64,000 nt of DNA, taken from assembly GCA_951802425.1 (NCBI GenBank), contig OX637803.1:1860001-1924000 (forward strand), read 5' to 3'. The notes under the pieces are model-generated. The model ran no database searches. It was not told the origin of the DNA and was given only the letters and a program-made list of their open reading frames with translations. Position numbers and translations under genes: made by a program. The DNA is from Clavaria fumosa. Taxonomy: Eukaryota; Basidiomycota; Agaricomycetes; Agaricales; Clavariaceae. The stretch's first letter is position 1. Each line of letters opens with the position of its first letter. Shown piece after piece: positions 22,595-60,900 of the stretch.

Positions 22595-25500
22595 ATGCGC
22601 GACACAGTCAGCACTGCCCTAGCGAAGCTGAAGTTATCGTTGGGACCCCGCTCGACTGCCTTCGTCAGTCTCCAGAATGCTCTCAGCCTGTTCAAAGAGG
22701 TCGCAGGCAGGACGGGTGTGCCAGGACTTCAGGAAGGCATCAAGGGCTTCGTCATCCTCCTTGATGCTGTTCAGGTGTGCAATTCATCTTTATCTCATTT
22801 ACCGTATTGTCACACTGCTCACCCATCCCTCACCCAGAAAACCGCACAAAATGACGATGACTTGGTTTCACTGGCCCAACGTGTTCAGGACTTGGATGCC
22901 ATGCTGAAGAGGGTGTTGAATACCAATAATGGTGTTTTGTCAGAGGCCATGGTTGATCGTATCAACTGTCTTTCCGAGTAAGTCACCATCCCATGGTGTG
23001 TACATTGCTTATCCCGGTTGGAAGATCATGGAAGTCCACGGGTGCCCGGGCTCAACATATGGTTGCTCGCAACTATTCCAAACGTGTCCTCGCCCGTGAC
23101 CAAAATGCCCTCGAGATTGCAGGCTGCATTTCTGCTATCCATTGGTCTATTGAAAGTTTTCTGGTGAGTATGTATGCTGTACCATTTACACTCTCTAAAT
23201 GAAGCTGTCTGGATGTCAGGTTGAAAGCACATTAGCAATTGAGTTTGCCCTTGATGTAAGTTTATCAGCACCAAATCTGACAAATGCCAAAACCTGACTG
23301 TTTAAATGACTAGGAACATGTTGGGTTCACAAGAAATGTTATGACCCGAATTGAGGACAAAATTGAGAGAAATCAAGAGGGCATTGAAGTTTGTTTCGTT
23401 CTGTCGGCATTCCTTGCCCAGTTTCTGACCTAAATCATGTATCAGGAAATCAAGATGAAACTTGATGTTTATGGTAGTAGTTTTGTCTGGCTGCAGTACT
23501 TTACTGATGCTGACTTGTACAGGTGGCTTGAATCCTCCGTATGCAATTATGGCCCATTTCCGTCACAAGGGGAAGCTAGTCCCTTGTCTCCCTGGAACCC
23601 GTGTTGAGGTTCTTGAAGAAGTATTCCGGTGGATTAGTTATACTGAGTGCACCTGGGACCAGGAGTGTGTGCCTGTGCCCTCTCCGGGCCTCAGTAGACC
23701 TGTGGGAAGCCGATGCATATTTTGGATCAATGGTTTAGCTGGAAGTGGGAAGACCACAATTGCGTTTACTTGTGCGGAGCATTGTCGGGAGAAAGGCATC
23801 CTGGCTGCAAACTTCTTTTGCTCCAGGGACAATGCTGACTGCAGTAACATCAAACTGGTATTCACTACCATTGCCTATCAGATGGGGAAATTTTGCCCAG
23901 AGTTCAAAGTTCTCCTTTCAAGTATTCTTGGGTCGGACCCAGACATTGTCTACTCTGATGTCTCCTATCAACTGGAAAAGTTGATCGTGGAGCCATTGAT
24001 TGCTGTCAGAAACAAATTCCCTCCAAGTGTGGTTGTGATTGATGCATTGGATGAGTGCAAAGATGACAATGCCACATCAACCATTTTGGCATCCTTGTCT
24101 CGACACATTGACAAGCTGTTCCCATTGCAATTCCTCATCACCAGTAGACCTATTCATAAAATCACTAGGGGTTTTCAAGATCCTCATCTCAGCAATGCAA
24201 CCAGACCTTTGATTCTTCATCAGGTTGACTTGGATATTGTTGAAAGTGATATCCAGAAGTATTTGGAATGGCATCTCAATGTGATCAAGGATCAATATGA
24301 CCTCCCTTCTCCCTGGCCAGCTTCTGTAGATATTGAAACCTTGACACATATGTCTTCAGGGCTCTTCATTTTTGCTGCCACTGCAGTAAGGTTCATTGGG
24401 ATGGCTGATCCAGGTGATCCAATGGCACAGTTGGAGGTACTTTTACAGAAAAACCCTGTTGCTGGCACATCTCCACAGCAGCATCTAGATCAGTTGTACT
24501 CTCAAGTGCTCAAAAGCACATTTCCAAATATTTCTGACCAACTTGCTGCCAAGTTGCGCTTGTTTCTTGGAGCTGTTGCCCTCCTCCAGGACCCTCTCCC
24601 AATAGATCAATTGGAGGATATGCTTGACCACAAGATAAACCACTATCTTCAGCAATTGCAGTCAATCATGATCATCCCAGCAGACAGAGTTGGAGTTATC
24701 CAGTTAATCCACCCATCATTTTTTGACTTTATTGTGGACCACAAGAGATGCCAGGAAGTGCAGGCACTGCAGTTCAGAGTCAACTCTCAAATGCAACACA
24801 CCATTCTTGCCAAGAAGTGCTTGACTTTGATGACAAAATTGAAAAAGGATATATGTGGCATAGGAGATCCTACAAAATTCAACCATGAACTGCCAGGTCT
24901 CTCAGAAAAAATATCAAAAAATATCTCATGCAGTCTAGAGTATGCATGTAGACATTGGGGATTGCATCTTTGCAGTGGATTGCTTTCAAGTGACCTATGG
25001 CAGCTTTTGAAAGATTTCTGCTTGAAGTATTTGGTGAACTGGATTGAGGTCTGCAGTCTCCTTGGTTACCTGAAAGATGCAGTTCAGATGTTGGTGGCTG
25101 TGCAGAGATGCTTGAAGGTATGTCCATGATTTGAAGCTCTGGGATATGTGAAGCTGACAAGTATTTTGCAGATGAATAACTTTAGAGATCCAGTTGTCTC
25201 AGCACTGCTTTATGACAGTGAAAGAATGATTCAAGAGTTCTTTCCAGCACTTAGTGCATCTGCCTTGCAGGTGTATTTCACTGCACTGCCCTTCATGCCA
25301 GTGGGCACTGAACTTTACAAGACCCATCATGATAAAATGAATGGAACAGTATTGGTAGAAGGAGCATTGCAAAAACATTGGAGTGCATGTGTGCAGGTCA
25401 TGGAGCATTCTGGTGAGGTGACATCAGTGTCATTCTCTCCAGATGGCACAAGGATAGTCTCAGGGTCATATGACAAGACTGTGAGAATGTGGGATGCAGT

Positions 25501-27640
25501 CACTGGTGCCCATTTACAAACACTCAAGGGCCATTCTGATCCTATCACATCAGTGTCATTCTCTCCAGATGGCACAAGGATAGTCTCAGGGTCTGATGAC
25601 AAGACTGTGAGACTGTGGGATGCAGTCACTGGTGCTCATTTACAAACACTCAAGGGCCATTCTGATTGGGTCAAATCAGTGTCATTCTCTCCAGATGGCA
25701 CAAGGATAGTCTCAGGGTCTTTAGACAAGACTGTGAGACTGTGGGATGCAGTCACTGGTGCTCATTTACAAACACTCAAGGGCCATTCTGATCCTATCAC
25801 ATCAGTGTCATTCTCTCCAGATGGCACAAGGATAGTCTCAGGGTCTTTAGACAAGACTGTGAGACTGTGGGATGCAGTCACTGGTGCTCATTTACAAACA
25901 CTCAAGGGCCATTCATCTTGGGTCACATCAGTGTCATTCTCTCCAGATGGCACAAGGATAGTCTCAGGGTCTAAAGACAAGACTGTGAGACTGTGGGATG
26001 CAGTCACTGGTGCTCATTTACAAACACTCAAGGGCCATTCTGATCATATCACATCAGTGTCATTCTCTCCAGATGGCACAAGGATAGTCTCAGGGTCTGA
26101 TGACAAGACTGTGAGACTGTGGGATGCAGTCACTGGTGCCCATTTACAAACACTCAAGGGCCATTCTGATCCTATCACATCAGTGTCATTCTCTCCAGAT
26201 GGCACAAGGATAGTCTCAGGGTCTGATGACAAGACTGTGAGACTGTGGGATGCAGTCACTGGTGCTCATTTACAAACACTCAAGGGCCATTCTCATTGGG
26301 TCACATCAGTGTCATTCTCTCCAGATGGCACAAGGATAGTCTCAGGGTCTTTAGACAAGACTGTGAGACTGTGGGATGCAGTCACTGGTGCTCATTTACA
26401 AACACTCAAGGGCCATTCTCATTGGGTCACATCAGTGTCATTCTCTCCAGATGGCACAAGGATAGTCTCAGGGTCTTTAGACAAGACTGTGAGACTGTGG
26501 GATGCAGTCACTGGTGCTCATTTACAAACACTCAAGGGCCATTCTGATTGGGTCAAATCAGTGTCATTCTCTCCAGATGGCACAAGGATAGTCTCAGGGT
26601 CTTTAGACAAGACTGTGAGACTGTGGGATGCAGTCACTGGTGCTCATTTACAAACACTCAAGGGCCATTCTGATCCTATCACATCAGTGTCATTCTCTCC
26701 AGATGGCACAAGGATAGTCTCAGGGTCTTTAGACAAGACTGTGAGACTGTGGGATGCAGTCACTGGTGCTCATTTACAAACACTCAAGGGCCATTCATCT
26801 TGGGTCACATCAGTGTCATTCTCTCCAGATGGCACAAGGATAGTCTCAGGGTCTAAAGACAAGACTGTGAGACTGTGGGATGCAGTCACTGGTGCTCATT
26901 TACAAACACTCAAGGGCCATTCTGATCATATCACATCAGTGTCATTCTCTCCAGATGGCACAAGGATAGTCTCAGGGTCTGATGACAAGACTGTGAGACT
27001 GTGGGATGCAGTCACTGGTGCTCATTTACAAACACTCAAGGGCCATTCTGATGTTATCACATCAGTGTCATTCTCTCCAGATGGCACAAGGATAGTCTCA
27101 GGGTCTGATGACATGACTGTGAGACTGTGGGATGCAGTCACTGGTGCTCATTTACAAACACTCAAGGGCCATTCTGATTGGGTCAAATCAGTGTCATTCT
27201 CTCCAGATGGCACAAGGATAGTCTCAGGGTCTGATGACAAGACTGTGAGACTGTGGGATGCAGTCACTGGTGCTCATTTACAAACACTCAAGGGCCATTC
27301 TGATCCTATCACATCAGTGTCATTCTCTCCAGATGGCACAAGGATAGTCTCAGGGTCTTCTGACAAGACTGTGAGACTGTGGGATGCAGTTACCAGCCAA
27401 TTTCTGAGTGTCCATGTTGATGAAAATAATGGACATTCATTGCCACATGTGACAGACAAGGGATGGTTATGCAATCCTTTCAGAAATTGTAGACTCTGCT
27501 GGATTCCTGTTACTTATCGCAAAATCTTAAGCTCTACTGGTGATGCTATAGCAATTGTGACCTATGATCATCAGCTTGTTGTGATCAAATTGTCTCCCCT
27601 GTATTCTTATCTACAAACTTGTGCAGCATTGTCTCAATAA
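22595..27640 (+). CDS. NACHT-WD40 (NWD) NLR protein, 16 WD40 repeats
   Basis: STAND/NLR receptor. Eight exons keep phase: 22595-22774, 22838-22977, 23025-23163, 23220-23255, 23314-23388, 23446-23473, 23523-25117, 25172-27640 (1553 aa). Residues 1-199 are a helical N-terminal region without a HET, HeLo or patatin motif. In the NACHT domain, Walker A GLAGSGKTT is at 270-278, Walker B VVVIDALDEC at about 370, then LQFLITSRP. A helical linker (to about 806) leads to 16 WD40 repeats of 42 aa (about 807-1480) and an 80-aa tail. Two WD40 propellers of seven to eight blades are possible. Such proteins oligomerise on ligand binding and trigger immunity or incompatibility; here that role is inferred. 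No stop or frameshift. AATAAA overlaps the stop. The start at 22595 is the first Met of the conserved region; an in-frame Met at 22358 exists. It converges on the gene ending at 28207. Confidence 0.93.
25400..27400 (+). repeat. 126-bp WD40-coding tandem array, 16 units
   Basis: Each unit encodes 42 residues with the frame GHSxxxxSVSFSPDGTRIV, GSxDKTVRLWDAVTGAH and LQTL. Units are almost identical in DNA; differences cluster at the four codons after GHS and the codon after GS. Units 3-6 (types DWVK/L, DPIT/L, SWVT/K, DHIT/D) recur in the same order as units 10-13, showing block duplication by unequal exchange. Confidence 0.95.
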
Positions 27641-34750: not shown

Positions 34751-37700
34751 ATGCGCGACACACTCAGCACTGCCCTAGTAAAGCTGAAGTTATCGTCGGG
34801 ACCCCGCTCAATCGCCTTCGTCAGTCTCCAGAATGCTCTCAACCTGTTCAAAGAGGTCGCAGGCAAGACGGGTGTGCCAGGACTTCAGGAAGGCATCAAG
34901 GGCCTCGTCATCCTCCTTGATGCTGTTCAGGTGTGCAATTCATCTTCATCTCATTTAACGTACTGTCACACCGCTCACCCATCCCTCACCCAGAAAACCG
35001 CACAAAATGACGATGACTTGGTTTCACTGGCCCAACGTGTTCAGGACTTGGAGGCCATGCTGAAGAGGGTGTCGAATACCAATAATGGTGTTTTGTCAGA
35101 GGCCATGGTTGATCGTATCAACTGTCTTTCCGAGTAAGTCACCATCCCTGGTGTGTACATTGCTTATCCCGGTTGGAAGATCATGGAAGTCCACGGGTGC
35201 CCGGGCTCAACACATGGTTGCTCGGAACTATGCCATACGTGTCCTCGCCCGTGACCAAAATGCCCTCGAGATTGCAGGCTGCATTTCTGATATCCATTGG
35301 TCTATTGAAAGTTTTCTGGTGAGTATGTATGCCGTACCATTTATACTCACTAAATGAAGCTGTCTGCATGTCAGGTTGAAAGCACATTAGCAATTGAGTT
35401 TGCCCTTGATGTAAGTTTATCAGCAAAAAAATCTGACATATTCCTAAAACCTGACTGTTTAAATGACTAGGAACATGTTGGGTTCACAAGAAATGCTATG
35501 ACTCGAATTGAGGACAAAATTGAGAGAAATCAAGAGGGCATTGAAGTTTGTTTCGTTCTGTTGGCATTCCTTGCCCAGTTTCTGACCTAAATCATGTATC
35601 AGGAAATCAAGATGAAACTTGATGTTTATGGTAGTAGTTTTGTCCGGCTGCAGTACTTTACTGATGCTGACTTGTACAGGTGGTTTGAATCCTCCCTATG
35701 CAATTATGGCCCATTTCCGTCACAAGGGGAAGCTAGTCCCTTGTCTCCCTGGAACCCGTGTTGAGGTTCTTGAAGAAGTATTCCGGTGGATTAGTTATAC
35801 TGAGTGCACCTGGGACCAGGAGTGTGTGCCTGTGTCCTCTCCGGGCCTCAGTAGACCTGTGGGAAGCCCATGCATATTCTGGATCAATGGTTTAGCTGGA
35901 AGTGGGAAGACCACAATTGCATTTACTTGTGCAGAGCATTGTCAGGAGAAAGGTATCCTGGCTGCAAACTTCTTTTGCTCCAGGGACAATGCTGACTGCA
36001 GTAACATCAAACTGGTATTCACTACCATTGCCTATCAGATGGGGAAATTTTGCCCAGAGTTCAAAGTTCTCCTTTCAAGAATTCTTGGGTCGGACCCAGA
36101 CATTGTCTACTCTGATGTCTCCTATCAACTGGAAAAGTTGATCGTGGAGCCATTGATTGCTGTCAGAAACAAATTCCCTCCAAGTGTGGTGGTGATTGAT
36201 GCATTGGATGAGTGCAAAGATGACAATGCCACATCAACCATTTTGGCATCCTTGTCTCGACACATTGACAAGCTGTTCCCATTGCAATTCCTCATCACCA
36301 GTAGACCTATTCATAAAATCACTAGGGGTTTTCAAGATCCTCATCTCAGCAATGCAACCAGACCTTTGATTCTTCATCAGGTTGACTTGGATATTGTTGA
36401 AAGTGATATCCAGAAGTATTTGGAATGGTATCTTGATGAGATCAAGGATCAATATGACCTCCCTTCTCCCTGGCCACCTTCTGCAGATATTGAAACCTTG
36501 ACACATATGTCTTCAGGGCTCTTCATTTTTGCTGCCACTGCAGTAAGGTTCATTGGGATGGCTGATCCAGGTGATCCCATGGCACAATTGGAGGTACTTT
36601 TACAAAAAAACCCTGTTGCTGGCACATCTCCACAGCAGCATCTAGATCAGTTGTATTCTCAAGTGCTCAAAAGCACATTTCCAAATATTTCTGACCAACT
36701 TGCTGCCAAGTTGCGCTTGTTTCTTGGAGCTGTTGCCCTCCTCCAGGACCCTCTCCCAATAGATCAATTGGAGGATATGCTTGACCACAAGATAAACCAC
36801 TATCTTCAGCAATTGCAGTCAATCATGATCATCCCAGCAGACAGAGTTGGAGTTATCCAGTTAATCCACCCATCATTTTTTGACTTTATTGTGGACCACA
36901 AGAGATGCCAGGAAGTGCAGGCACTGCAGTTCAGAGTCAACTCTCAAATGCAACACACCATTCTTGCCAAGAAGTGCTTGACTTTGATGACAAAATTGAA
37001 AAAGGATATATGTGGCATAGGAGATCCTACAAAATTCAACCATGAACTGCCAGGTCTCTCAGAAAAAATATCAAAAAATATCTCATGCAGTCTAGAGTAT
37101 GCATGTAGACATTGGGGATTGCATCTTTGCAGTGGATTGCTTTCAAGTGACCTATGGCAGCTTTTGAAAGATTTCTGCTTGAAGTATTTGGTGAACTGGA
37201 TTGAGGTCTGCAGTCTCCTTGGTTACCTGAAAGATGCAGTTCAGATGTTGGTGGCTGTGCAGAGATGCTTGAAGGTATGTCCATGATTTGAAGCTCTGGG
37301 ATATGTGAAGCTGACAAGTATTTTGCAGATGAATAACTTTAGAGATCCAGTTGTCTCAGCACTGCTTTATGACAGTGAAAGAATGATTCAAGAGTTCTTT
37401 CCAGCACTTAGTGCATCTGCCTTGCAGGTGTATTTCACTGCACTGCCCTTCATGCCAGTGGGCACTGAACTTTACAAGACCCATCATGATAAAATGAATG
37501 GAACAGTATTGGTAGAAGGAGCATTGCAAAAACATTGGAGTGCATGTGTGCAGGTCATGGAGCATTCTGGTGAGGTGACATCAGTGTCATTCTCTCCAGA
37601 TGGCACAAGGATAGTCTCAGGGTCATATGACAAGACTGTGAGAATGTGGGATGCAGTCACTGGTGCCCATTTACAAACACTCAAGGGCCATTCTGATCCT

Positions 37701-39419
37701 ATCACATCAGTGTCATTCTCTCCAGATGGCACAAGGATAGTCTCAGGGTCTGATGACAAGACTGTGAGACTGTGGGATGCAGTCACTGGTGCTCATTTAC
37801 AAACACTCAAGGGCCATTCCTATTCTATCAGATCAGTGTCATTCTCTCCAGATGGCACAAGGATAGTCTCAGGGTCTGATGACAAGACTGTGAGAATGTG
37901 GGATGCAGTCACTGGTGCTCATTTACAAACACTCAAGGGCCATTCCAATGGTATCACATCAGTGTCATTCTCTCCAGATGGCACAAGGATAGTCTCTGGG
38001 TCCTGGGACAAGACTGTGAGACTGTGGGATGCAGCCACTGGTGCTCATTTACAAACACTCAAGGGCCATTCCCATTGGGTCACATCAGTGTCATTCTCTC
38101 CAGATGGCACAAGGATAGTCTCAGGGTCTTTAGACAAGACTGTGAGACTGTGGGATGCAGTCACTGGTGCTCATTTACAAACACTCAAGGGCCATTCTGA
38201 TTCTATCACATCAGTGTCATTCTCTCCAGATGGCACAAGGATAGTCTCAGGGTCTGATGACAAGACTGTGAGAATGTGGGATGCAGTCACTGGTGCTCAT
38301 TTACAAACACTCAAGGGCCATTCTGATTGGGTCAGATCAGTGTCATTCTCTCCAGATGGCACAAGGATAGTCTCAGGGTCTGATGACAAGACTGTGAGAC
38401 TGTGGGATGCAGTCACTGGTGCTCATTTACAAACACTCAAGGGCCATTCTGATTGGGTCAGATCAGTGTCATTCTCTCCAGATGGCACAAGGATAGTCTC
38501 AGGGTCTTCTGACGAGACTGTGAGACTGTGGGATGCAGTCACTGGTGCTCATTTACAAACACTCAAGGGCCATTCTGATTCTATCACATCAGTGTCATTC
38601 TCTCCAGATGGCACAAGGATAGTCTCTGGGTCCTGGGACAAGACTGTGAGACTGTGGGATGCAGCCACTGGTGCTCATTTACAAACACTCAAGGGCCATT
38701 CCCATTGGGTCACATCAGTGTCATTCTCTCCAGATGGCACAAGGATAGTCTCAGGGTCTTTAGACAAGACTGTGAGACTGTGGGATGCAGTCACTGGTGC
38801 TCATTTACAAACACTCAAGGGCCATTCTGATTGGGTCATATCAGTGTCATTCTCTCCAGATGGCACAAGGATAGTCTCAGGGTCTGATGACAAGACTGTG
38901 AGACTGTGGGATGCAGTCACTGGTGCTCATTTACAAACACTCAAGGGCCATTCTGATTGGGTCATATCAGTGTCATTCTCTCCAGATGGCACAAGGATAG
39001 TCTCAGGGTCTTCTGACGAGACTGTGAGACTGTGGGATGCAGTCACTGGTGCTCATTTACAAACACTCAAGGGCCATTCCCATTGGGTCACATCAGTGTC
39101 ATTCTCTCCAGATGGCACAAGGATAGTCTCAGGGTCTAAAGACAAGACTGTGAGACTGTGGGATGCAGTTACCAGCCAATTTCTGAGTGTCCATGTTGAT
39201 GAAAATAATGGACATTCATTGCCACATGTGACAGACAAGGGATGGTTATGCAATCTTTTGAGAAATTGTAGACTCTGCTGGATTCCTGTTACTTATCGCA
39301 AAATCTTAAGCTCTACTGGTGATGCTATAGCAGTTGTGACCTATGATCATCAGCTTGTTGTGATCAAATTGTCTCCCCTGTATTCTTATCTACAAACTTG
39401 TGCAACATTGTCTCAATAA
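34751..39419 (+). CDS. NACHT-WD40 (NWD) NLR protein, 13 WD40 repeats
   Basis: Recent duplicate of the NWD gene at 22595. Eight exons in phase: 34751-34930, 34994-35133, 35180-35318, 35375-35410, 35471-35545, 35603-35630, 35680-37274, 37329-39419 (1427 aa). Walker A GLAGSGKTT is at about 270-278 and Walker B VVVIDALDEC near 370. The NACHT-linker exon differs from the first copy at only about ten residues (for example WHLNVIKDQ against WYLDEIKDQ). The WD40 part has 13 units, with different types and order from the first copy (YSIR, NGIT and DSIT units occur only here). The 378-bp size difference in the last exon is exactly three units. No stop or frameshift. The region 240 bp downstream is broken by a retrotransposon. 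Confidence 0.93.
37555..39180 (+). repeat. 126-bp WD40-coding tandem array, 13 units
   Basis: Same 42-aa unit as the array at 25400. Type order: EVT/Y, DPIT/D, YSIR/D, NGIT/W, HWVT/L, DSIT/D, DWVR/D, DWVR/S, DSIT/W, HWVT/L, DWVI/D, DWVI/S, HWVT/K. The block W, HWVT/L, .., DWVx/D, DWVx/S occurs twice with small changes. Two units with W after GS also carry Ala in place of Val in WDAVTG, marking them as copies of each other. Confidence 0.95.
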
Positions 39420-46330: not shown

Positions 46331-46545
46331 CTTGGCCTGCTTCAGATATTGGAAGAAGTCTTCAGGACACCTTCGCACAGCCCCACACACTCACCACCTC
46401 CCATGAACCTTGCCCTCCCTGTAGCACTCGATCCCCCATCACCTCAGACTCCCTCTCCCCCTCCTCAGTCTCCTCCATCTCCTTTGCCTCAGATTCCATG
46501 CAACTCCCAGACATTAACAATGAGGTATTCAGATATGATGTCTAG
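46331..46545 (+). pseudogene. gag segment between LTR copy D and the palindrome
   Basis: Pro/Ser-rich reading (PPSPQTPSPPPQSPPSPL) ending TMRYSDMMSS at the palindrome border. It continues across the palindrome in the same frame with RYSIAPFDGNKLAYWTF at 56982, which supports the border and the TCTAG duplication (46541-46545). Confidence 0.7.
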
Positions 46546-47180
46546 CCACCCCCTTCAGCACACCCACCCCCTATCCAAAAGGCCCAGCCGATTTTGACTG
46601 ATGCCCTTTTTATGGGCCCAGCCGATCATCGGCCGAGATATAGCTTTATAGGCTTGGCCGATCAACTTGATATACCAAAATCCTGCCAGGCATACAGGGA
46701 TCCCATGGTAATGATGATACCCTTTCAAAAGGGCTGGCTGACACCCATTTTAGGAACCAGTGTAGAGGGTCTGAAGAACCCTATTCAAACATTTCTCTCA
46801 CTTACATGACAAATTAGATCAAAAAAGCTGGGGATAAAGCATATGCACAAGATTAGGAAGCAAAGATCAGATGTGCTATTTGATAGACATGTAAATTACA
46901 AGGTCATCTGCATCATTTGAGACTCCTTATCATCTGAGACTCCTCCATGACAACTTAACATAGTTGGGTGAGATGAAAACCAATATGCCTTCCAATAGGT
47001 CTTCAAAGGGTAGAAGCAAATGTACCAATCAAATATGCAATGGAGCCATTATAAACTAGAGTGAAATGTGGTTGTCAACTGAGTCAGGATATTCTTTGGA
47101 AAAGGATGGGCCTTAATATCCTTTCTGAAGAGTATTCAAATCCACTTTGAATATGTGTTCTAAAGGAGAATGTATTGTTA

Positions 47181-47582
47181 TTGTTCAAATATTCTTGCAA
47201 TGTAGAAGTTGTGCATGTGAGTCTGTTATCTCACCTTGGGATTATATCATTTTGTGGCTGTGCCCGGGATCCCAGGTGTGACAGTCACACTGTGACCAAC
47301 TCTGCATATTAGTATTGTTCAGATATCCTTGCATTGTAGAAGTTGTGCATGTGAGTCTGTTATCTCACCTTGGGATTATATCATTTTGTGGCTGTGCCCG
47401 GGATCCTGGGTGTGACAGTCACACTGTGACCAACTCTGCATATTAGTATTGCTCAGATATTCTTGCATTGTAGAAGTTGTGCATGTGAGTCTGTTATCTC
47501 ACCTTGGGATTATATCATTTTGTGGCTGTGCCCAGGATCCCGGGTGTGACAGTCACACTGTGACCACAACTCTGGATCTGCA
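47181..47582. repeat. 134-bp tandem repeat, three copies (left arm)
   Basis: Units start at about 47181, 47315 and 47449. Each holds TGTAGAAGTTGTGCATGTGA, CACCTTGGGATTATATC and a perfect dyad GTGTGACAGTCACAC. Mirrored in the right arm at about 55945-56350. Confidence 0.92.
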
Positions 47583-48001
47583 ACTCATATCCATAACTAC
47601 CAGGGCAGGGCAAGTACAATGATTGGACAGAGGGGAACAAGGTGTGAAGACATGTTCAGAGAAGGAAGGACTACTGTATCTGTAACTACAAGGGCACAAC
47701 AAGAACATATCCAAGGCTGGGGAAGGCATCTCAGAGAGGGTGATGAGTGTTGAGAAGGGGTGGTGTCAGCACTGACAGAGCCATCACACTCAAACATTCT
47801 TTCATTTACTTGTGTCTATAGTAGTCTCTTTGTGTTTACCTGCCCTCCTCTCCTTGTATTTACCTACCAGTTTCTACATCATATACACCCTGGGGCTCTT
47901 GAGCATGAGCCAGGGATCACTTTATGACTTATTGCACATGGACAGCAGAACATAGGATGATTTGACACTTGAGATTATTTGAAAGGATGCTGCTGGCCCA
48001 C

Positions 48002-48019
48002 TTAGGGTTAGGGTTAGGG
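48002..48019 (+). repeat. Interstitial telomere-type repeat (left arm)
   Basis: Three perfect TTAGGG units, the canonical fungal telomere repeat, oriented with the G strand pointing to the centre of the palindrome. Mirrored at 55503-55520. Confidence 0.95.
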
Positions 48020-48749
48020 CAGATAAACTGCAATAGATTCAGGGTGATCTCTTATACCATATTCATTTGTCAAAGCTAATCCACAAGTACAAATTAATTA
48101 CAACAAATCAAAAGAAAAACATGTCTGGCATTTACATCAGAGGATGGGTGGCCAAATCCACCTCCGACAAGCCATTCATATGATAATATGTGCTTCATTG
48201 CAAAGGGGGCACTGCAATCTAGGCAAGCCCCACTTCACCAAAGCAAGAGTCCCCAGTCTCAAGTAGATAAGATGATCTGTAAGAAACTAGGGTGGGAGGA
48301 CGCTAACCACATGGCAGTCAGCAGTCCATCCCAGAGCCCATATGGCAACCCCAAGGTATGAGCAGCAGATAGCACAAAAAAACTTACAAAGATGGGGTTG
48401 GGGGAGGTTGTCTTGCATAATAGACCACACTCACATCCTTGGCCCATTTGGCCACCCCAGGTGCAGGTATGAATGAGGGTTGGTTGGGGCCAGCCTGCAT
48501 ATAAGCTGCCACCAAACCAAAAGGCCCATACAGCCACCCTCTTCACATAACATTCTGAAAAGCAACATCAACGAGCACCATACCAGTAAAAAGTGTGAAT
48601 AGTAATAAAACCCACATACCTCTGCAGGTGTCAAGCTCATACAGACACCTGAAGGCAGACAAGAGCAGCATTCCCTGTATGGCACTGCAGTTGCCACACA
48701 GAGAATGCTGCCCTTGTCTGCCACAAACCATAAGGTGGACATGGCAGCA

Positions 48750-51085
48750 CAGGAAGGGCAGTGGGCAGCGGGGCAGCAGGCGGGGCAGCAGGTGGGCAGG
48801 CGAGGCAGCGGGTGGGCAGGCGGGGCAGCGGGCAGGCAGGCGAGGGAGCGGGTGGGCAGGCGGGGCAGCGGGCAGGCGGGGCAGGGCAGCGGGCAGGCAG
48901 GGCAGGGCAGCGGGTGGGCAGGGCGGGGCAGCGGGCAGGCAGGCAAGGCAACTGGCGGCAGGGCGGGGCAGCGGGTGGGAAGGCGGGGCAGCGGGTGGGA
49001 AGGCGGGGCAGCCGGTGGGCAGGCGGGGCTGCAGGAGGGCAGGGCTGGGCAGGGCGGGGCTGCGGGGCTGCGAGGCAGCGGGCAGGCAGGGCGGGGCAGC
49101 GGGCAGCAGGCAGGCAGGGCAGTGGGTGGGCAGCGGGTGGGCAGCGGGTGGGCAGCGGGTGGGCAGGCAGGGCTGCGGGCAGGGCGGGGTTGCGGGCAAG
49201 CAGGCGGGGCAGTGGCCAGGCAGGGCGGGGCAGCGGGCGGGCAGGCGGGGCTGGGCAGCGGGCAGGCGGGGCAGGGCAGCGGGCAGGCAGGGCGGGGCAG
49301 CAGGCAGGCAGGGCAGCGGGCAGGCAGGCAAGGCAACTGGCGGCAGGGCGGGGCGGCGGGTGGGAAGGCGGGGCAGCCGGTGGGAAGGCGGGGCAGCCGG
49401 TGGGGGGGCGGGGCAGCGGGCAGGCAGGGCGGGGCAGCAGGCAGGCGGGGCAGCAGGTGGGAAGGCGGGGCTGCCGGTGGGCAGGCGGGGCTGCGGGCAG
49501 GCAGGGCGCGGCAGCAGGCAGGCAGGGCGGGGCAGCGGGCAGGCGGGGCAGCAGGTGGGAAGGCGGGGCTGCCAGTGGGCAGGCGGGGCTGCAGGCAGGC
49601 AGGCGGGGCTGCGGGCAGGCGGGGCAGGGCAGCGGGCAGGCAGGGCGCGGCAGCAGGCAGGCAGGGCGGGGCAGCGGGCAGGCAGGGCGGGGCAGCGGGC
49701 AGACAGGCAAGGCAGCGGGCGGGCAGGGCGGGGCGGCGAGGCAGCGGGCAGGCAGGGCGGGGCAGCGGGTAGGAAGGCGGGGCAGCGGGTGGGCAGGCAG
49801 GGCTGCGGGTGGGCAGGCAGGGCTGCGGGCAGGGCGGGGTTGCGGGCGAGCAGGCGGGGCAGCGGCCAGGCAGGGTGGGGCAGCAGGCAGCAGGCAGGCA
49901 GGGCAGCGGGTGGGCAGCGGGTGGGCAGCGGGTGGGCAGTGGGTGGGCAGTGCGGGCCAGCGGGCCAGCAGGCAGGCGGGGCAGCGGGCAGGCGGGGCAA
50001 CGGGTGTAGAGGCGGGGCAGCGGGCGAGCAGGCGGGGCTGCAGGAGGGCAGGGCGGGGCAGCAGGCGGGCAGGCGGGGCTGCAGGAGGGCAGGGCGGGGC
50101 AGGGCGGGGTGGCGGGTGGGCAGGGCTGTGGGGCTGCGAGGCAGCGGGCAGGCAGGCAAGGCAGTGGGCGGGCAGGGCGGGGCTGCGAGGCAGCGGGCAA
50201 GCAGGGCGGGGCAGCAGGCAGCAGGCAGGCAGGGCAGCGGGTGGGCAGCGGCTGGGCTGCGGGTGGGCAGGCAGGGCTGCGGGCAGGGCGGGGTTGCGGG
50301 CGAGCAGGCGGGGCAGGGCGGGGCGGCAGGTGGGCAGGGCTGCGGGGCTGCGAGGCAGCGGGCAGGCAGGCAAGGCAGTGGGCGGGCAGGGCGGGGCTGC
50401 GAGGCAGCGGGCAAGCAGGGCGGGGCAGCGGGCAGCAGGCAGGCAGGGCAGCGGGTGGGCAGCGGCTGGGCTGCGGGTGGGCAGGCAGGGCTGCGGGCAG
50501 GGCGGGGTTGCGGGCAAGCAGGCGGGGCAGGGCGGGGCGGCGGGTGGGCAGGGCTGCGGGGCTGCGAGGCTGCGGGTGGGCAGGCGGGGCTGCGGGCGAG
50601 CAGGCGGGGCAGCGTGCGGGCAGGCGGGGCTGCAGGAGGGCAGGCGGGACTGCAGGAGGGCAGGCGGGGCTGCAGGAGGGCAGGGCGGGGCAGGGCGGGG
50701 CGGCGGGTGGGCAGGGCTGCGAGGCTGCGAGGCAGCGGGTGGGCAGGCAGGGCTGCGGGCAGGGCGTGGTTGCAGGCGAGCAGGCAGGGCGGGGCAGCGG
50801 GCAGCAGGCAGGCAGGGCAGCGGGTGGGCAGCGGGTGGGCAGCGGGTGGGCAGTGGGTGGGCAGTGCGGGCCAGCAGGCAGGCTGGGCAGCGGGCAGGCG
50901 GGGCAGCGGGCAGCCAGGCGGGGCTGCAGGAGGGCAGGGCGGGGCAGCGGGCAGGTAGGCGGGGCTGCAGGAGGGCAGGGCGGGGCAGCGGGCGGGTAGG
51001 CGGGGCTGCAGGAGGGCAGGGCGGGGCGGCGGGTGGGCAGGGCTGCGGGGCTGCGGGGCTGCGAGGCAGCGGATGGGCAGGCGCA
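48750..51085. repeat. GC-rich minisatellite (left arm), about 2.3 kb
   Basis: Variable units of 8-30 bp built from GGCAGGCGGGGCAGCGG, GGCTGCGGG and GGGTGGGCAGC. Several frames stay open for hundreds of codons and give Pro/Ala/Cys or Gly/Ala/Arg strings, without protein-like composition. The array has higher-order copies (for example blocks around 50110-50300 and 50330-50520). Confidence 0.95.
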
Positions 51086-51938
51086 GCAGAGGATGTTCCA
51101 CCATGTTTGTTTGGTGCTCACTGTTTAAAGTGTTTCAACATTTGGCTCTGTTTGTTCATGTTGATATATCATGTGACTCTGCCCAATGACACAATCACAA
51201 GCCTTTTCTTGGCCCTGTACTCAGGCCAGGCTAGAATGGGAGGATTTTATGTACTAGGTTCTATATGATGTGATAAGCTAGAGTCTAGATGTGGGTGCCA
51301 AGAGAGGATGATACAAACAAAGGCCCAGAGCTGCTTTTGGTAAGCTGCTATGACTGTGGGAAGAAAATTGCATGGCTTGCGAAATATGACTTTTTATACA
51401 CCAAAAAATCGGCAAAAATCTGGAGATTCTGAATCTGGATACCCCACATTTGTACCTGCCTTGGTTCAGTGTCAATTCGCAAAATACACAGAAAATATTC
51501 ATTTTCCACAATTCTGCAGTACTCTGCAGTACTCTGGCTTGAAAATGGTTAGTGGAGGATACACACATTACCTGTAGACATATGGGGAGGGTGCAGATTA
51601 GTTTAACAACCCACCCACCATCTCTGTCACCTCCCTGGAATCCATTACTGGGAATTAGGGTTATTGGCCTGGGAGCATGGCTATTTGTTATATTGCAAAT
51701 TCCAGCCATCAAACTACACCCTATGACATCTAATACAATCATACAAAAGCCCATAATATTTGGTGCAGAACTACAGATTCCCCATGTCTATTTTCCCAAA
51801 ATTCTCAAAATCTCTCCCCAGATAGCCCCCTTTGTCAAATCACATATTCCTGTTAGCAAATAGTTCACAATGTGTACATGAAGACATGTTCAAAGTTTGG
51901 TGAAGTTGGGCCAAGTTCTCAGGAAGATAGCTCAGAAT

Positions 51939-52020
51939 GAGACTTTTGGGAGACTGTCAAGGTCTTCCTTATCCTCGCCTTCATCTTTGACTTCACTTTA
52001 GACTGTCCTCCAGAAGACAT
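51939..52020. other. Palindrome centre (82-bp spacer)
   Basis: The only part not mirrored. It contains AGACTGTC twice and no recognisable signal. The arms resume at ATTCTGAGCTATCTTCC-type sequence on each side. Such a long hairpin with a short loop is unstable in replication, and a small asymmetric centre is typical of palindromes that persist. Confidence 0.85.
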
Positions 52021-52871
52021 ATTCTGGGCTATCTTCCTGAGAACTTGGCCCAACTTCACCAAACTTTGAACATGTCTTCATGTACACATTGTGAACTATT
52101 TGCTAACAGGAATATGTGATTTGACAAAGGGGGCTTTCTGGGGAGAGATTTTGAGAATTTTGGGAAAATAGACATGGGGAATCTGTAGTTCTGCACCAAA
52201 TATTATGGGCTTTTGTATGATTGTATTAGATGTCATAGGGTATAGTCTGATGGCTGGAATTTGCAATATAACAAATAGCCATGCTCCCAGGCCAATAACC
52301 CTAATTCCCAGTAATGGATTCCAGGGAGGTGACAGAGATGGTGGGTGGGTTGTTAAACTAATCTGCACCCTCCCCATATGTCTACAGGTAATGTGTGTAT
52401 CCTCCACTAACCATTTTCAAGCCAGAGTACTGCAGAGTACTGCAGAATTGTGGAAAATGAATATTTTCTGTGTATTTTGCGAATTGACACTGAACCAAGG
52501 CAGGTACAAATGTGGGGTATCCAGATTCAGAATCTCCAGATTTTTGCCGATTTTTTGGTGTATAAAAAGTCATATTTCGCAAGCCATGCAATTTTCTTCC
52601 CACAGTCATAGCAGCTTACCAAAAGCAGCTCTGGGCCTTTGTTTGTATCATCCTCTCTTGGCACCCACATCTAGACTCTAGCTTATCACATCATATAGAA
52701 CCTAGTACATAAAATCCTCCCATTCTAGCCTGGCCTGAGTACAGGGCCAAGAAAAGGCTTGTGATTGTGTCATTGGGCAGAGTCACATGATATATCAACA
52801 TGAACAAACAGAGCCAAATGTTGAAACACTTTAAACAGTGAGCACCAAACAAACATGGTGGAACATCCTCT

Positions 52872-54775
52872 GCTGCGCCTGCCCATCTGCTGCCTCGCAG
52901 CCCCGTTGCCCCACCACCCCGCTTTCCCGGCATCCCGCTCTCCCCTCCTGCCAAGCTGCCCCTGCTCCACTGCCCCGCTGCCCGCCACCCTGCTGCCCTG
53001 ACGCCCCACCTCGCAGCCCCGCCTGCCCCACCCTGCCCACGCGCTGCCTTGCCTGCCTGCCCGCAGCCCCGCCTGCCCACCGGCTGCCCCGCCTGCCCAC
53101 CCGCTGCCTCGCAGCCCCGCCCTGCCCCGCCCTGCCCTCCTGCATCCCCGCCTGCCCGCCCGCTGCCCACCTGCTGCCTCGCCTGCCCACCCGCTGCCTC
53201 GCCTGCCCCACCCTGCCCACCCGCTGCCTCGCCTGCCCCACCCTGCCCACCCGCTGCCTCACCTGCCTGCCCGCAGCCCCGCCTGCCCACCCGCTGCATC
53301 GCAGCTCCGCAGCCCTGCCCACCCGCCGCCCCGCCCTGCCCCGCCCTGCCCTCCTGCAGCCCCGCCTGCCCGCCCGCAGCCCCGCAGCCCTGCCCACCCG
53401 CCGCCCCGCCCTGCCCTCCTGCAGCCCCGCCTGCCCGCGCGCAGCCCCGCAGCCCTGCCCACCCGCCGCCCCGCCCTGCCCTGCCCTGCCCTCCTGCAGC
53501 CCCGCCTGCCTGCCCGCTGCCCCGCCTCTACACCCGTTGCCCCGCCTGCTCGCTGCCCCGCCTGCCTGCTGGCCCGCTGGCCCGCACTGCCCACCCGCTG
53601 CCCACCTGCTGCCCACCCGCTGCCCTGCCTGCCTGCTGCCTGCTGCCCCGCCCTGCCTGGCCGCTGCCCCGCCTGCTTGCCCGCAACCCTGCCCTGTCCA
53701 CAGCCCTGCCTGCCCACCCGCAGCCCCGCCTGCCCACCGGCAGCCCCGCCTTCCCACCCGCTGCCCCGCCTGCTCGCCCGCAACCCCACCCTGCCTGCAG
53801 CCCTGCCTGCCCACCCGCAGCCCCGCCTTCCCACCCGCTGCCCCGCCCTGCCGCCCGCTGCCTTGCCTGCCTGCCTGCTGCCCCGCCTGCCCGCTGCCCC
53901 GCCCCGCCTGCCCGCTGCCCCGCCCTGCCTGCCCGCTGCCCCGCCCTGCCTGCCTGCTGCCCCGCCCCACCTGCCCGCTGCCCCGCCTGCCCGCTGCCCC
54001 GCCTGCCCACCCACAGCCTCGCCTGCCTGCCCGCTGCCCGCTGCCCTGCCCTCCTGCAGCCCCGCCTGCCCGCCCGCTGCCCCGCCCTGCCCTCCTGCAG
54101 CCCTGCCTGCCCACCCGCTGCCCCGCCTGCCCACCCGCTGCCCCGCCTTCCTACCCGCTGCCCCGCCCTGCCTGCCCGCTGCCTCGCAGCCCCGCCCTGC
54201 CCGCCCGTTGCTTTGCCTGTCTGCCCGCTGCCCTGCCCTGCCTGCCCGCTGCCCCGCCTGCCCGCTGCCCCGCCTGCCCACTCGCTGCCTCGCCTGCCTG
54301 CCTGCTGCCCCGCCCTGCCTGCCCGCTGCCCCGCCCCGCCTGCCCACCGGCAGCCCCGCCTGCTCGCCCGCAACCCTGCCCTGCCCGCAGCCCTGCCTGC
54401 CCACCCGCTGCCCACCCGCTGCCCTGCCTGCCTGCTGCCCGCTGCCCCGCCCTGCCTGCCCGCTGCCTCGCAGCCCCGCAGCCCTGCCCACCCGCCGCCC
54501 CGCCCTGCCCCGCCCTGCCCTCCTGCAGCCCCGCCTGCTCGCCCGCAACCCCGCCTGCTAGCCCGCAACCCCGCCCTGCCCGCAGCCCTGCCTGCCCACC
54601 CGCAGCCCCGCCTGCCCACCGGCTGCCCCGCCCTGCCGCCAGTTGCCTTGCCTGCCTGCCCGCTGCCCCGCCCTGCCCTCCTGCAGCCTCGCCTGCCCAC
54701 CCGCTGCCCTGCCCTGCCCACCTGCTGCCCTGCCTGCTGCCCCGCTGCCCCGCCTGCCCACTGCCCTTCCTGTGC
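52872..54775. repeat. GC-rich minisatellite (right arm), about 1.9 kb
   Basis: Inverse of the left-arm array but shorter and with a different unit order, so it has evolved independently since the palindrome formed. The unique sequences on both sides of it still match the left arm. Confidence 0.95.
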
Positions 54776-55502
54776 TGCCATGTCCACCTTATGGTTTGTG
54801 GCAGACAAGGGCAGCATTCTCTGTGTGGCAACTGCAGTGCCATACAGGGAATGCTGCTCTTGTCTGCCTTCAGGTGTCTGTATGAGCTTGACACCTGCAG
54901 AGGTATGTGGGTTTTATTACTATTCACACTTTTTACTGGTATGGTGCTCGTTGATGTTGCTTTTCAGAATGTTATGTGAAGAGGGTGGCTGTATGGGCCT
55001 TTTGGTTTGGTGGCAGCTTATATGCAGGCTGGCCCCAACCAACCCTCATTCATACCTGCACCTGGGGTGGCCAAATGGGCCAAGGATGTGAGTGTGGTCT
55101 ATTATGCAAGACAACCTCCCCCAACCCCATCTTTGTAAGTTTTTTTGTGCTATCTGCTGCTCATACCTTGGGGTTGCCATATGGGCTCTGGGATGGACTG
55201 CTGACTGCCATGTGGTTAGCGTCCTCCCACCCTAGTTTCTTACAGATCATCTTATCTACTTGAGACTGGGGACTCTTGCTTTGGTGAAGTGGGGCTTGCC
55301 TAGATTGCAGTGCCCCCTTTGCAATGAAGCACATATTATCATATGAATGGCTTGTCGGAGGTGGATTTGGCCACCCATCCTCTGATGTAAATGCCAGACA
55401 TGTTTTTCTTTTGATTTGTTGTAATTAATTTGTACTTGTGGATTAGCTTTGACAAATGAATATGGTATAAGAGATCACCCTGAATCTATTGCAGTTTATC
55501 TG

Positions 55503-55520
55503 CCCTAACCCTAACCCTAA
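55503..55520 (-). repeat. Interstitial telomere-type repeat (right arm)
   Basis: CCCTAA three times on the plus strand, the mirror of 48002-48019. Confidence 0.95.
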
Positions 55521-55944
55521 GTGGGCCAGCAGCATCCTTTCAAATAATCTCAAGTGTCAAATCATCCTATGTTCTGCTGTCCATGTGCAATAAGTCATAA
55601 AGTGATCCCTGGCTCATGCTCAAGAGCCCCAGGGTGTATATGATGTAGAAACTGGTAGGTAAATACAAGGAGAGGAGGGCAGGTAAACACAAAGAGACTA
55701 CTATAGACACAAGTAAATGAAAGAATGTTTGAGTGTGATGGCTCTGTCAGTGCTGACACCACCCCTTCTCAACACTCATCACCCTCTCTGAGATGCCTTC
55801 CCCAGCCTTGGATATGTTCTTGTTGTGCCCTTGTAGTTACAGATACAGTAGTCCTTCCTTCTCTGAACATGTCTTCACACCTTGTTCCCCTCTGTCCAAT
55901 CATTGTACTTGCCCTGCCCTGGTAGTTATGGATATGAGTTGCAG

Positions 55945-56350
55945 ATCCAGAGTTGTGGTCACAGTGTGACTGTCACACCCGGGATCCTGGGCACAGCCAC
56001 AAAATGATATAATCCCAAGGTGAGATAACAGACTCACATGCACAACTTCTACAATGCAAGAATATCTGAGCAATACTAATATGCAGAGTTGGTCACAGTG
56101 TGACTGTCACACCCAGGATCCCGGGCACAGCCACAAAATGATATAATCCCAAGGTGAGATAACAGACTCACATGCACAACTTCTACAATGCAAGGATATC
56201 TGAACAATACTAATATGCAGAGTTGGTCACAGTGTGACTGTCACACCTGGGATCCCGGGCACAGCCACAAAATGATATAATCCCAAGGTGAGATAACAGA
56301 CTCACATGCACAACTTCTACATTGCAAGAATATTTGAACAATAACAATAC
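55945..56350. repeat. 134-bp tandem repeat, three copies (right arm)
   Basis: Mirror of 47181-47582 with the same number of copies and the same dyad. Confidence 0.92.
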
Positions 56351-56981
56351 ATTCTCCTTTAGAACACATATTCAAAGTGGATTTGAATACTCTTCAGAAA
56401 GGATATTAAGGCCCATCCTTTTCCAAAGAATATCCTGACTCAGTTGACAACCACATTTCACTCTAGTTTATAATGGCTCCATTGCATATTTGATTGGTAC
56501 ATTTGCTTCTACCCTTTGAAGACCTATTGGAAGGCATATTGGTTTTCATCTCACCCAACTATGTTAAGTTGTCATGGAGGAGTCTCAGATGATAAGGAGT
56601 CTCAAATGATGCAGATGACCTTGTAATTTACATGTCTATCAAATAGCACATCTGATCTTTGCTTCCTAATCTTGTGCATATGCTTTATCCCCAGCTTTTT
56701 TGATCTAATTTGTCATGTAAGTGAGAGAAATGTTTGAATAGGGTGCTTCAGACCCTCTACACTGGTTCCTAAAATGGGTGTCAGCCAGCCCTTTTGAAAG
56801 GGTATCATCATTACCATGGGATCCCTGTATGCCTGGCAGGATTTTGGTATATCAAGTTGATTGGCCAAGCCTATAAAGCTATATCTCGGCCGACGATCGG
56901 CTGGGCCCATAAAAAGGGCATCAGTCAAAATCGGCTGGGCCTTTTGGATAGGGGGTGGGTGTGCTGAAGGGGGTGGTCTAG

Positions 56982-57858
56982 CAGATACTCCATCGCTCCC
57001 TTCGATGGGAACAAGCTTGCTTACTGGACCTTTGTCTGACAACTCAACATCTTCTTCCTCACAGAAGCCGAAAGGTTCAATACAGACCTAAAATGAATTC
57101 TCTTCACCCTCAACCAGATGTGCAGAGGTTATGCCAGAGATTGGGCAAATTCCGTGGTCGAGAAAATAGTTGCAAACCCCACCTCATGCCCTACCTGGGC
57201 TGTCTTCAAAGAGAGAATGGATGCCGAGTTTGCTGACTTGGTAGAGAAGGAAAACACTTACCTTAAGCTTGGAAAGCTTAAGCAGGGTAAGCAGCTGGTT
57301 AATGAGTTTCTAACAGAGTTCAACCAGCTAGTCACAAAGGCTGAACTCACAAAGGAAACTCATGGAGACCTCCTCATCACCCTCCTCAAACCTGCACTCA
57401 AGTTTGCCATTACCGACCACATATACGCCACCGCCTCCCTTCCACCCAACTACTCTGCATGGAAGAGGAAAGCCCTTGCCATTGACATGATGCTCGAACA
57501 TCGCGATGCTATGCGCCCAGCCCAGCCCATCATCTTCGTCAAACCACCCGACCGCCCAGCTCCACGACCTTCCATGCCCCCACAACATGACCCGAATGCC
57601 ATGCAGGTTGACTGGATCCTGTCATGTGGCAATTGCTACAATTGTCAGCAGCCTGGTCACCTTGCGCGCAACTGCCCGCTCCCTCACAAGCCCCCCCAAG
57701 TCCCCCAAATCAATGTCTGCACCAATGACACCTTGACCGCTACTGTTGACAAGCTTGAGGCCCTGGTGGCCCAGCTCTGCGACACCATTGAGGTGAAGGA
57801 CAAGGAGCTCGGAGTGCTAAAAGAGGCAAAGGCGGATTTTCCCGCAGGCAAGGAGTGA
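56982..57858 (+). pseudogene. gag 3' part of the chromovirus, with zinc knuckle
   Basis: APFDGNKLAYWTF.. then, after two stops, MCRGYARDWANSVVEKI, WAVFKERMDAEFAD, LGKLKQGKQLVNEFLTEF (retrotransposon gag domain). A CCHC zinc knuckle CYNCQQPGHLARNC is encoded at about 57638-57679, then a short coiled coil. The 246-codon part 57118-57858 is free of stops. The product would form the capsid and bind RNA. Confidence 0.85.
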
Positions 57859-57959: not shown

Positions 57960-60900
57960 GTGGGCCATCAGGAAATGGCCCAACTCGAGTTCAAAGTACA
58001 AATCTCCCCCCCCCCCCATGTTCCCGAGTAGAGCTGTGCTCAGAAAGGTGCTCATCGACAGCAGGAGTACTACCTCGGTCATGGATCACAATTTTGCTAA
58101 ATGAAACTGATTTCCCTTGGAATGACTCCTGGCCCCGATGATCACAAGGAATGTGGATGGTATGCCAAACTCGTGAGGACCCATTACACACTCCACCAAG
58201 GTTGCAATCAAGTTTGGTCTTGGTCATCGCGAGGTTATCGAGTGTTATCTGGGCGACTACCCTGACTTCGACCTTGTACTGGGCAATGATTGGCTCTGGA
58301 AACACAACCCTGTCATCGACTGGTGAACCTGTTCCCTCGAATTCCAGCATTGCTGTGGTCTTCCCTGTAGTGCTGCGGTCTGCGTCATTGCAAGTGACTC
58401 CCCTGATTGGCCAACCCTCTTCCTGCAAGTATTTGAAGAAGAGTTCTACAATGTTTTACCCCTGTACTGCCCCAGAGTCGATATCGACATCCAGCTAGAG
58501 GATGGTGCCCACCCATACTGGTCTCAAATTTACCTGACACCCAAGGCCTACCACGCAGAACTCTGGAAGTGGCTAGACAAGAACCTTGTGACCAGACATA
58601 TCTATCCAGGTCAGTCACTGTGGGCAAGCCCTCTCTTCTTCAAGAATGAAGGAGACAAGCTCCAGCCTGTGGTTGACTACAAACGGTTAAATGAAGTCAT
58701 GGTCAAGAATGCCTACCCTCTCCCTCTTATCCAGAACATCTACGACCACCTGCAGAAGTTCTGGTACTACTCAAAAATTGACATCCGGATCGAATTCAAC
58801 AATATCTGGGTGTCGAAGGAGAGCGAGAAGTTACTGGTGTTCATATGCGAATATGGACAATTCCTTTGTCGAGTTATGCCCTTCGGAGTGACTAACGCCC
58901 CTGTGATCTTCCAGGCCTTTATGGATGATGTCCTGAAGGATTTGGTGGCCACCAGCCAAGTCTTTGTATACATCAACGACATCCTCATCTGTTCCAATAC
59001 TTGCAAAGAACTCTGCAACCCTACGGCACGAGTTTTCCGGGTCCTCCAGGACAATCACCTGACCATCAAACCCACAAAGTGCAAAGTGCAAATTCGAGTG
59101 GACAGAGGTGACTTTCCTTGGAAACAAAATCCAGCAAGGGACCATCGAGAAAGGCGAGAAGAGATGCTCAGCAATTGACAACTGGCCAGTCCCGAAATCT
59201 GCCAAGGACACCTGCAGATATATGGCCCTCGGGAGTTACTACCGACAGTATATTCTGAACTATGCCAAGATTGCCACCCTGCTTCATGCCTGCACCAGCA
59301 AAGGTGAATTTGAATTAACGGATGCCATGCTAAAATCATTCCATGACATCCAGGATGCAATTTGGAATTCGGTTCAGGTCGCAATCCCCCAAGACAGGAT
59401 GCCTTGGAAGATCGAGACGGATGCCAGCGAAGTTGCAACCTCAGCCATCCTTTATCAGCAGCAGGATGGAGTATGGAGGATGGTAGACTGCCTATCGACC
59501 AAGCTTCAGGACGCCCAGCTGAATTACGATGTCTACGACTTGGAGCTTCTTGCGGTGGTATGTGCACTTGAGGAATGGCAACATTACCTCCTCGGTCAGG
59601 ACTTTGAGGTCCACATGGACCACAAGAACCTATCATATTTCTGGAAGCTGAACCTGCTCAACAGACACCAAAACTGGTGGAGACAGTTCCTATCACTCTT
59701 CTGCTTCAAGATCATTCCCCACTCTGGAAAATCGAATGCCGCCGCCAATGCCTTATCCCGCCATCCCAACTACGATGACCAACCTCCCCGCCCTGCCCAA
59801 GTCCTGCTACCGGACCACTTCTTCCAGGTTAATGAGACCCTGTCCCTAATGGAGAAACTGAGGATTGAACAGGCCCTGGAGACCCCTCCAGAAGAGGCGG
59901 AGAAAGATAAGGAAGGATACCTCCAGGTGCAGGAGAAGCTCTGGGTCCCGGCATCACTTGTAAAGGACATCCTCGATCTCCATCACTCAGCTCAGACTAC
60001 CGCACACCCTGGGATTGCCAAAACCCAAGTTTCAGTCACGAAATACTGGTATTGGCCTACACTCAAGAAGGACACCTGCACCTACATCATTGCCTGTGAC
60101 ATCTGTCCAAGGATAAAACCTCGACACAGACGAAAACCGGCCCCCCTTCACCCCCTCCCTATCCCCTCATGATCTTGGCAAGTCATCAGTTGGGATTTAA
60201 TTGGCCCTGTCTCGGAGTCCGCAGGCTACGACATGATTTTGGTTATCAAGGACTATTTAACCAAGACTATCATCCTCACCCTGACTGTCCAGGAACTCAC
60301 GTCAGAAGGAGCGGCCTCGATCCTCCTGGAGAAGATATATGCCTACTACAGACTTCCGGAGAAGGTAGTATCTGACTGAGGGGGACAGTTCATCTCCAAG
60401 TTCATGTGTGAAGTCTATGACAAGTTAGGAATCAAGTCAGCTGCATCCACTGCCTACCACCCCCAGATGGATGGGCTGGTAGAAAGGGCCAACCAAAAGG
60501 TTGAGGTAGTACTCCAAGCACTAACTAAAGAAGACCAGGCCGATTGGGCCACTGTGCTCCCCCTCACCCAGTTCGCCCTTAATTCACAACCCATCCACAA
60601 CTCGGACATCACCCCCTTCTCGACACTCCATGGCTTCGACCCTGCCCCAATCCCTGACTTCCCCTCCAGCTTCGACATACCCACCACCGACGAATTCCTG
60701 GCCAGGATTTCTGCCACCTGTGACCACCTCCGGGATGTCCTGCAAAAAGGGCAAACAACTGACTCTGCAACTTATGATGACCATTCATGAGAACTGGAGG
60801 TCTACAAGAAGGGTAACCCAGTGTATTTAGACTCATGGAACCTCCCCCTTCACCTCCCGTCAAAGAAGCTTGGCCCTAAATTCGTCAGTCCTTTCCCTGT

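Follow-up and report, generated by a model that had tools for sequence, protein, structure and literature searches.

The 64,000-nucleotide stretch of Clavaria fumosa DNA analysed here (hereafter the window; G000:C10:1860001-1924000, in a genome of 48.76 Mb and 17 contigs) carries a large palindrome inside a retrotransposon, which raises the question of what this structure is, how it came to lie there and how its two arms remain so alike. Its parts and immediate surroundings are given below in window coordinates.

46540..46546, no strand: left target-site duplication GTCTAGC, from multi-element comparison
46547..56975, no strand: whole palindromic element, CACCCCC...GGGGGTG, 10,429 bp, ends set by comparing nine elements
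46547..47316, plus: left terminal 770 bp, common to the ends of three 26-kb elements
47179..47566, plus: 134-bp tandem repeat of the left arm, 2.9 copies
47570..48760, plus: inner left arm, with whole or partial matches at other palindromes and larger elements
48763..51083, plus: left GC-rich minisatellite
51084..51938, plus: central palindromic core, left half, with pieces found again elsewhere in the genome, usually in mirrored pairs
51939..52020, no strand: 82-bp centre with little mirroring
52021..52875, minus: right half of the central core
53005..54761, minus: right GC-rich minisatellite, shorter than and diverged from the left one
54762..55952, minus: inner right arm, mirroring the left
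55956..56343, minus: 134-bp tandem repeat of the right arm
56206..56975, minus: right terminal 770 bp, mirroring the left one (sequence comparison)
56976..56982, no strand: right target-site duplication GTCTAGC, from multi-element comparison
57097..57600, plus: host retrotransposon gag, open piece 3' of the insertion (Retrotrans_gag, domain match 9e-10)
58327..60172, plus: host retrotransposon reverse transcriptase, RNase H and integrase pieces (RVT_1, RT_RNaseH, Integrase_H2C2)

Comparison of the left arm with the mirrored right arm, inward from 46547, revealed 3 mismatches over the first 2,222 bp, and the core (51072-51938) differed from its mirror at 4 positions, which confirms the near-perfect palindrome announced in the preliminary description. 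The 82-bp centre described there is indeed poorly mirrored (51939-52020) and, as also stated, mirroring fails in the minisatellite, the two GC-rich arrays between arm and core being of unequal length and matching poorly base for base. Three tandem units of the telomere-like motif TTAGGG were also noted in each arm, at about 48005 and 55503.

A perfect 7-bp duplication was found around CACCCCC...GGGGGTG ends in eight of the nine elements compared. In the window, the duplicated target is thus GTCTAGC, and CACCC from 46547 onward forms the beginning of the element. A 5-bp duplication, TCTAG, and a start at 46546 with CCACCC had been proposed earlier; the 5-bp duplication was dropped for 7 bp after this comparison. 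The count of five arose because the duplication itself starts with G and ends with C, and the additional C and G of the CCACCC reading belong to the duplication, as its last and its first letter. No strict target motif emerged from base counts over 19 duplications. A genome search with both flanks joined by one copy of the duplication led to the recovery of an uninterrupted gag site at C10:1838350-1838553, with 97% identity; the 40 rows listed also contained the window's own two halves and 37 more distant relatives crossing the junction. The joined site reads through in one open frame, TMRYSDMMSSRYSIAPFDGNKLAYWTF, as had been claimed for the excised sequence, and the uninterrupted site and the Retrotrans_gag match together bear out the proposed insertion into gag. 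The host retrotransposon has a domain set as in Ty3-type elements.

Perfect palindromes are prone to misassembly, and an assembly fault or a local inverted duplication was therefore considered as the source of this structure. This explanation is very improbable in view of the direct 7-bp duplications at unrelated sites, the intact empty gag site, and the sister copies, which are of unequal length and have minisatellites unlike each other between arms. Judged from the sequence, the palindrome is genuine, and it represents a mobile element that was inserted here.

Other features were observed elsewhere in the window. Two very similar NACHT/NPHP3_N reading frames (23459-27640 and 35616-39419, the first scanned against Pfam) are each followed by an array, of 15.6 and 12.8 copies respectively, in which the 126-bp WD-repeat-like units are nearly identical, a pair that looks like a recent duplication. 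The few named relatives among the 120 matches listed for a NACHT protein of the window belong to Jaapia, Phanerochaete, Galerina and Mycena, which are Agaricomycetes. An open frame with a Transposase_21 (tnp2) domain is located on the minus strand at 1643-3031, and tandem repeats (CCG-rich, GGAGAG and CGG-rich) occupy approximately 3 kb at 5511-8559.

To what family does the element belong? Its 36-bp terminus, with up to 3 mismatches allowed, occurs 107 times genome-wide (52 forward and 55 reverse copies) and its reversed control 0 times, which therefore excludes chance. Thirty-one end pairs were made by hand from 62 of the 100 termini listed out of the 107, the 38 others being left out, and duplications were read in 29 of these pairs (all except C5:3512732 and C11:2185650). 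Seventeen had a perfect 7-bp duplication, three had one mismatch, three had none and six had mirrored flanks. Further copies, empty sites and duplications, a search for which had been suggested as a check, are thus all present in the genome. The 31 pairs fall into two size classes, with 16 pairs above 20 kb and 15 of 0.65-12.4 kb. Eleven of the 15 short pairs, including the window element, are palindromic by position, their termini and inner-arm matches being symmetric about one centre with an offset of 0 in eight, 67 bp (half a 134-bp unit) in two and 17 bp in one; the remaining four comprise one composite, one copy with a single arm, and two pairs of 5.9 kb and 650 bp. The size classes were then compared with the positions of KDZ sequences, using 48 matches picked by hand for nearness among those listed of the 185 in the genome. 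Among the matches listed, one lay inside 13 of the 16 same-ended pairs above 20 kb, including all seven pairs of 25.9-26.8 kb, and none lay inside any of the 15 shorter pairs (listing checked by eye), nor inside the window element.

Three of the 26-kb elements were compared with the window element:

C1:471029: B1, inverted repeats of about 3.7 kb, perfect 7-bp duplication
C8:731235: B8, inverted repeats of about 3.7 kb, perfect 7-bp duplication
C11:227226: B11, inverted repeats of about 3.7 kb, perfect 7-bp duplication

The outer 770 bp of the window element are found in all three at about 93-98% identity, the right end of B1 covering 661 bp. A domain scan of seven open frames of B1 identified CxC2 (8.4e-27), KDZ (PF18758, 1e-30) and Tet_JBP (1.8e-18). 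KDZ was the only transposase family above the Pfam cut-off in these frames, and no P-type transposase matched in the seven, B1 having other frames. The Tet_JBP frame aligned with the solved CcTet (4e-22), and HRD and the downstream Gly331 and Asp337 were in place when this alignment was read by eye. A full-length relative with a transposase, as sought in the preliminary description, is thus represented by 26-kb elements that share the ends and carry KDZ transposase sequence.

Two Kyakuja families of Laccaria are described with 7-bp duplications and CA..TG ends, and lack inverted repeats, and the AG-type TET is found in Kyakuja and Zisupton (Kojima 2025, PMC12730594, in the passages considered). 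The window element has a perfect 7-bp duplication and CA..TG ends (CACCCCC...GGGGGTG), and its presumed autonomous partner B1 carries a KDZ transposase; the 8-bp duplication of Zisupton and Dileera is not found, the length here being 7 bp. Because of its duplication, its ends and its KDZ relatives with shared ends, the element would therefore be a Kyakuja-type passenger. The label rests on duplication length, termini and companion gene, and the 26-kb set fits Kyakuja except for its inverted repeats. Absence of terminal inverted repeats, as in the two L. bicolor families, does not apply to B1, B8 and B11, and we regard it as particular to these two families, the long repeats here then marking a variant; if it is taken as defining, the element should not be filed as Kyakuja. 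The inverted repeats extend over most of the window element and contain tandem repeats, which agrees with the foldback-like nature proposed earlier. The accompanying claim that the element fits no common fungal family came partly from the wrong 5-bp duplication; the 7-bp duplication and CA..TG ends match published Kyakuja.

The same data bear on whether another superfamily with 7-bp duplications, such as hAT7, could be responsible, the KDZ genes of the 26-kb elements being passengers. The length of hAT7 duplications is also 7 bp, and the genome is very rich in KDZ sequences. However, the presence of a listed KDZ match in every same-ended pair of 25.9-26.8 kb, its being the sole transposase family over the cut-off in the B1 frames scanned, and the agreement of the CA..TG ends with Kyakuja make this alternative improbable. 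We therefore favour, with a probability of roughly 80%, a non-autonomous, foldback-like Kyakuja (KDZ) DNA transposon, together with the mobilisation proposed here and the arm repair considered below. The window element is without an enzyme of its own and is apparently moved by much larger, enzyme-encoding relatives: the KDZ transposase of the full-length relatives of about 26 kb would most likely recognise the shared terminal sequence, cut both ends and insert the element through a 7-bp staggered cut.

The likeness of the two arms was then considered using a tree of the outer arms of six palindromes, in which one arm of the copy S1 (C1:3227889-3237919) was trimmed at a fixed length, the trimming motif being absent from it. 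The two arms of the same element grouped together in all six, with a support of 0.97-1.00 in five palindromes and identical arms in the copy S5. Substitutions numbered 0-8 within elements and 12-33 between elements (left arms, 15 comparisons), S5 differing from the others by 14-22, and between 2 and 28 columns per element were private to that element and present in both its arms. The window element, whose arms are 3 substitutions apart, is the weakest case of homogenisation because only 2 of its private variants are common to the two arms and 2 others are confined to a single arm. It follows from the grouping that each element either keeps its arms homogeneous or acquired its palindromic form independently, and the grouping could also reflect separate recent palindrome formation. 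In the first case, which we consider probable, a cut or gap in one arm would be mended with the opposite arm of that element as the template; copying past the arm end would mirror some of the host flank, and if a terminus of a different Kyakuja family lay in this flank, the palindrome would gain new ends.

The copy S1 has the organisation expected from such an overshoot. Its left flank can be written X-GTAGTCT; on the right, the element is followed by GTAGTCT in inverted form and by the 36-bp X, likewise inverted, after which come GTAGTCT in direct form and the original right flank. The target with a single GTAGTCT is intact at C1:3221212 (99%), other places having lower identity; the extra 43 bp is therefore a mirror copy of the left flank, and it stops exactly at the right copy of the duplication. 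The simplest reading would be a precise cut at the right end, outward copying along the left arm and beyond its end, and joining to the cut flank. The arms of S1 differ by 8 substitutions and one 134-bp unit, more than in the other five palindromes, and the copying event is therefore old rather than fresh. A large mirrored chromosome segment or an assembly fault was rejected for S1, the mirror covering just 43 bp of flank. A 26-kb element with a KDZ match (C1:4638393-4664361) has a 64-bp mirrored flank with one mismatch and no duplication at the junction. This element was not counted as a second clean case, as the exact junction is absent, no uninterrupted target was found in the genome and the 64-bp piece commonly adjoins the right flank elsewhere.

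A second type of mirrored flank was found in four copies with CACTCCC ends, in which the 40 bp of flank that were read are both mirrored and shared, as are about 400 bp or more in the three that were read further. In the C6 copy the mirrored flank extends for 889 bp, up to a second terminus, CACACCCTTCAGCGTACCC. The outer 7-bp duplication is perfect in two of the three nested copies read, namely the C6 copy (GCCGTCA) and C2:3950041 (GGGGAAA), both identified by eye, and C1:4811843 has none at its read ends. In C1:4811843 and C2:3950041 the outer flanks are unequal, with a difference in length of 331-367 bp. The second-family ends sit about 0.9 kb outside the palindrome ends. Genome-wide, the second terminus has 21 + 24 copies and its control 0, and it bounds nine pairs of 34-49 kb with CACACCC ends (e.g. 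C2:1093238-1141268), all nine with a listed KDZ match and seven with two or three. As the mirrored flank ends in the second terminus, a palindrome is now inside the ends of another KDZ-associated family, which would be expected if a mirrored overshoot had reached that end. Simple nesting, followed by mirroring at another time, could also account for this arrangement.

The main rival to copying from arm to arm places the origin in the centre of the palindrome. The core may have seeded palindrome formation by inverted duplication around it (through a cruciform or hairpin, then fold-back replication), in which case the likeness of the arms would denote recent origin and not ongoing repair. The recurrence of core parts at other loci, usually as mirrored pairs, fits such an origin. 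So does a locus at C6:1809586, another palindrome, where the same core has on either side a different, unrelated 33-bp minisatellite, so that one core lies in the middle of differently built palindromes; neither terminus was found there within the stretch C6:1805200-1811400. In contrast, the private variants shared by the arms (2 to 28 columns each) would require every element to have had its own event, the S1 flank joined exactly at the insertion site points to repair at the end and not at the centre, and the core lies apart from arm sequence in the C3 stretch that was read. This C3 stretch was also considered as the parent of the palindrome and rejected, as arm, minisatellite and core are present but in another order. 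Core seeding consequently appears rather unlikely.

Taken together, the grouping of the arms, the mirrored flank of S1 and the nested group favour arm-to-arm copying after transposase cuts. Self-templating palindromes, in which an end cut is repaired from the opposite arm, overshoot mirrors the flank, and a flank with an end of another KDZ family leads to a switch of ends and so probably of transposase, thus have a single clean case and a single nested group in their favour. This is not a proof, and we propose the complete scheme tentatively, with slightly less than even confidence.

Kyakuja are carriers of DNA-demethylation-type enzymes and are poorly characterised; in this genome, full-length Kyakuja-type ends are seen together with long inverted repeats and a class of large palindromic passengers. 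S1 looks like the trace of a cut at one end that was mended from the opposite arm, and in the nested copies a parasite bears the ends of a second family. The survival of long palindromes and the origin of foldback elements become testable in one fungus. If transcribed, the 10-kb palindrome would yield double-stranded RNA covering the helper ends. In maize, Mu killer yields double-stranded RNA of this kind for MuDR.

Palindromic Kyakuja derivatives were named in none of the titles and abstracts searched, the KDZ terminal motifs in the Marasmius oreades supplement lying outside this comparison. In the parts of the Kyakuja report on which we rely (PMC12730594), the 7-bp duplication, CA..TG ends, KDZ transposase and Tet_JBP gene with HxD are as found here, and the CcTet Gly331 and Asp337 positions, present in B1, are conserved or common. 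These parts make no mention of palindromic derivatives, and the Laccaria families they describe are without inverted repeats, whereas the repeats here are of about 3.7 kb in the three 26-kb elements and take up most of the length of the palindromes. Zisupton, Dileera and Cryptococcus KDZ1-3 also share the KDZ transposase; according to the sections consulted (PMC12730594; PMC12810828), Zisupton, the Dileera family Zisupton-1_PGr and KDZ1 differ by their 8-bp duplications, those of KDZ2 and KDZ3 being of 4-8 bp, and the inverted repeats of KDZ1-3 are of 139-241 bp. In Pack-TIR gap filling in animals, as far as the excerpt used goes (PMC8277862), template switching during transposon repair likewise copies foreign sequence in, and P elements can incorporate flank when a sequence farther downstream serves as an end, whereas here the flank is copied outward as a mirror image. 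A structural parallel is provided by Galileo and Foldback of Drosophila (PMC4168063, PMC3573991): their transposase belongs to the P superfamily and not to KDZ, and the passages considered describe no mirrored host flank or end change, but they share with the present elements 7-bp duplications, long inverted repeats with tandem repeats inside, abundant transposase-less copies, and inverted repeats that grow by recruiting inner sequence.
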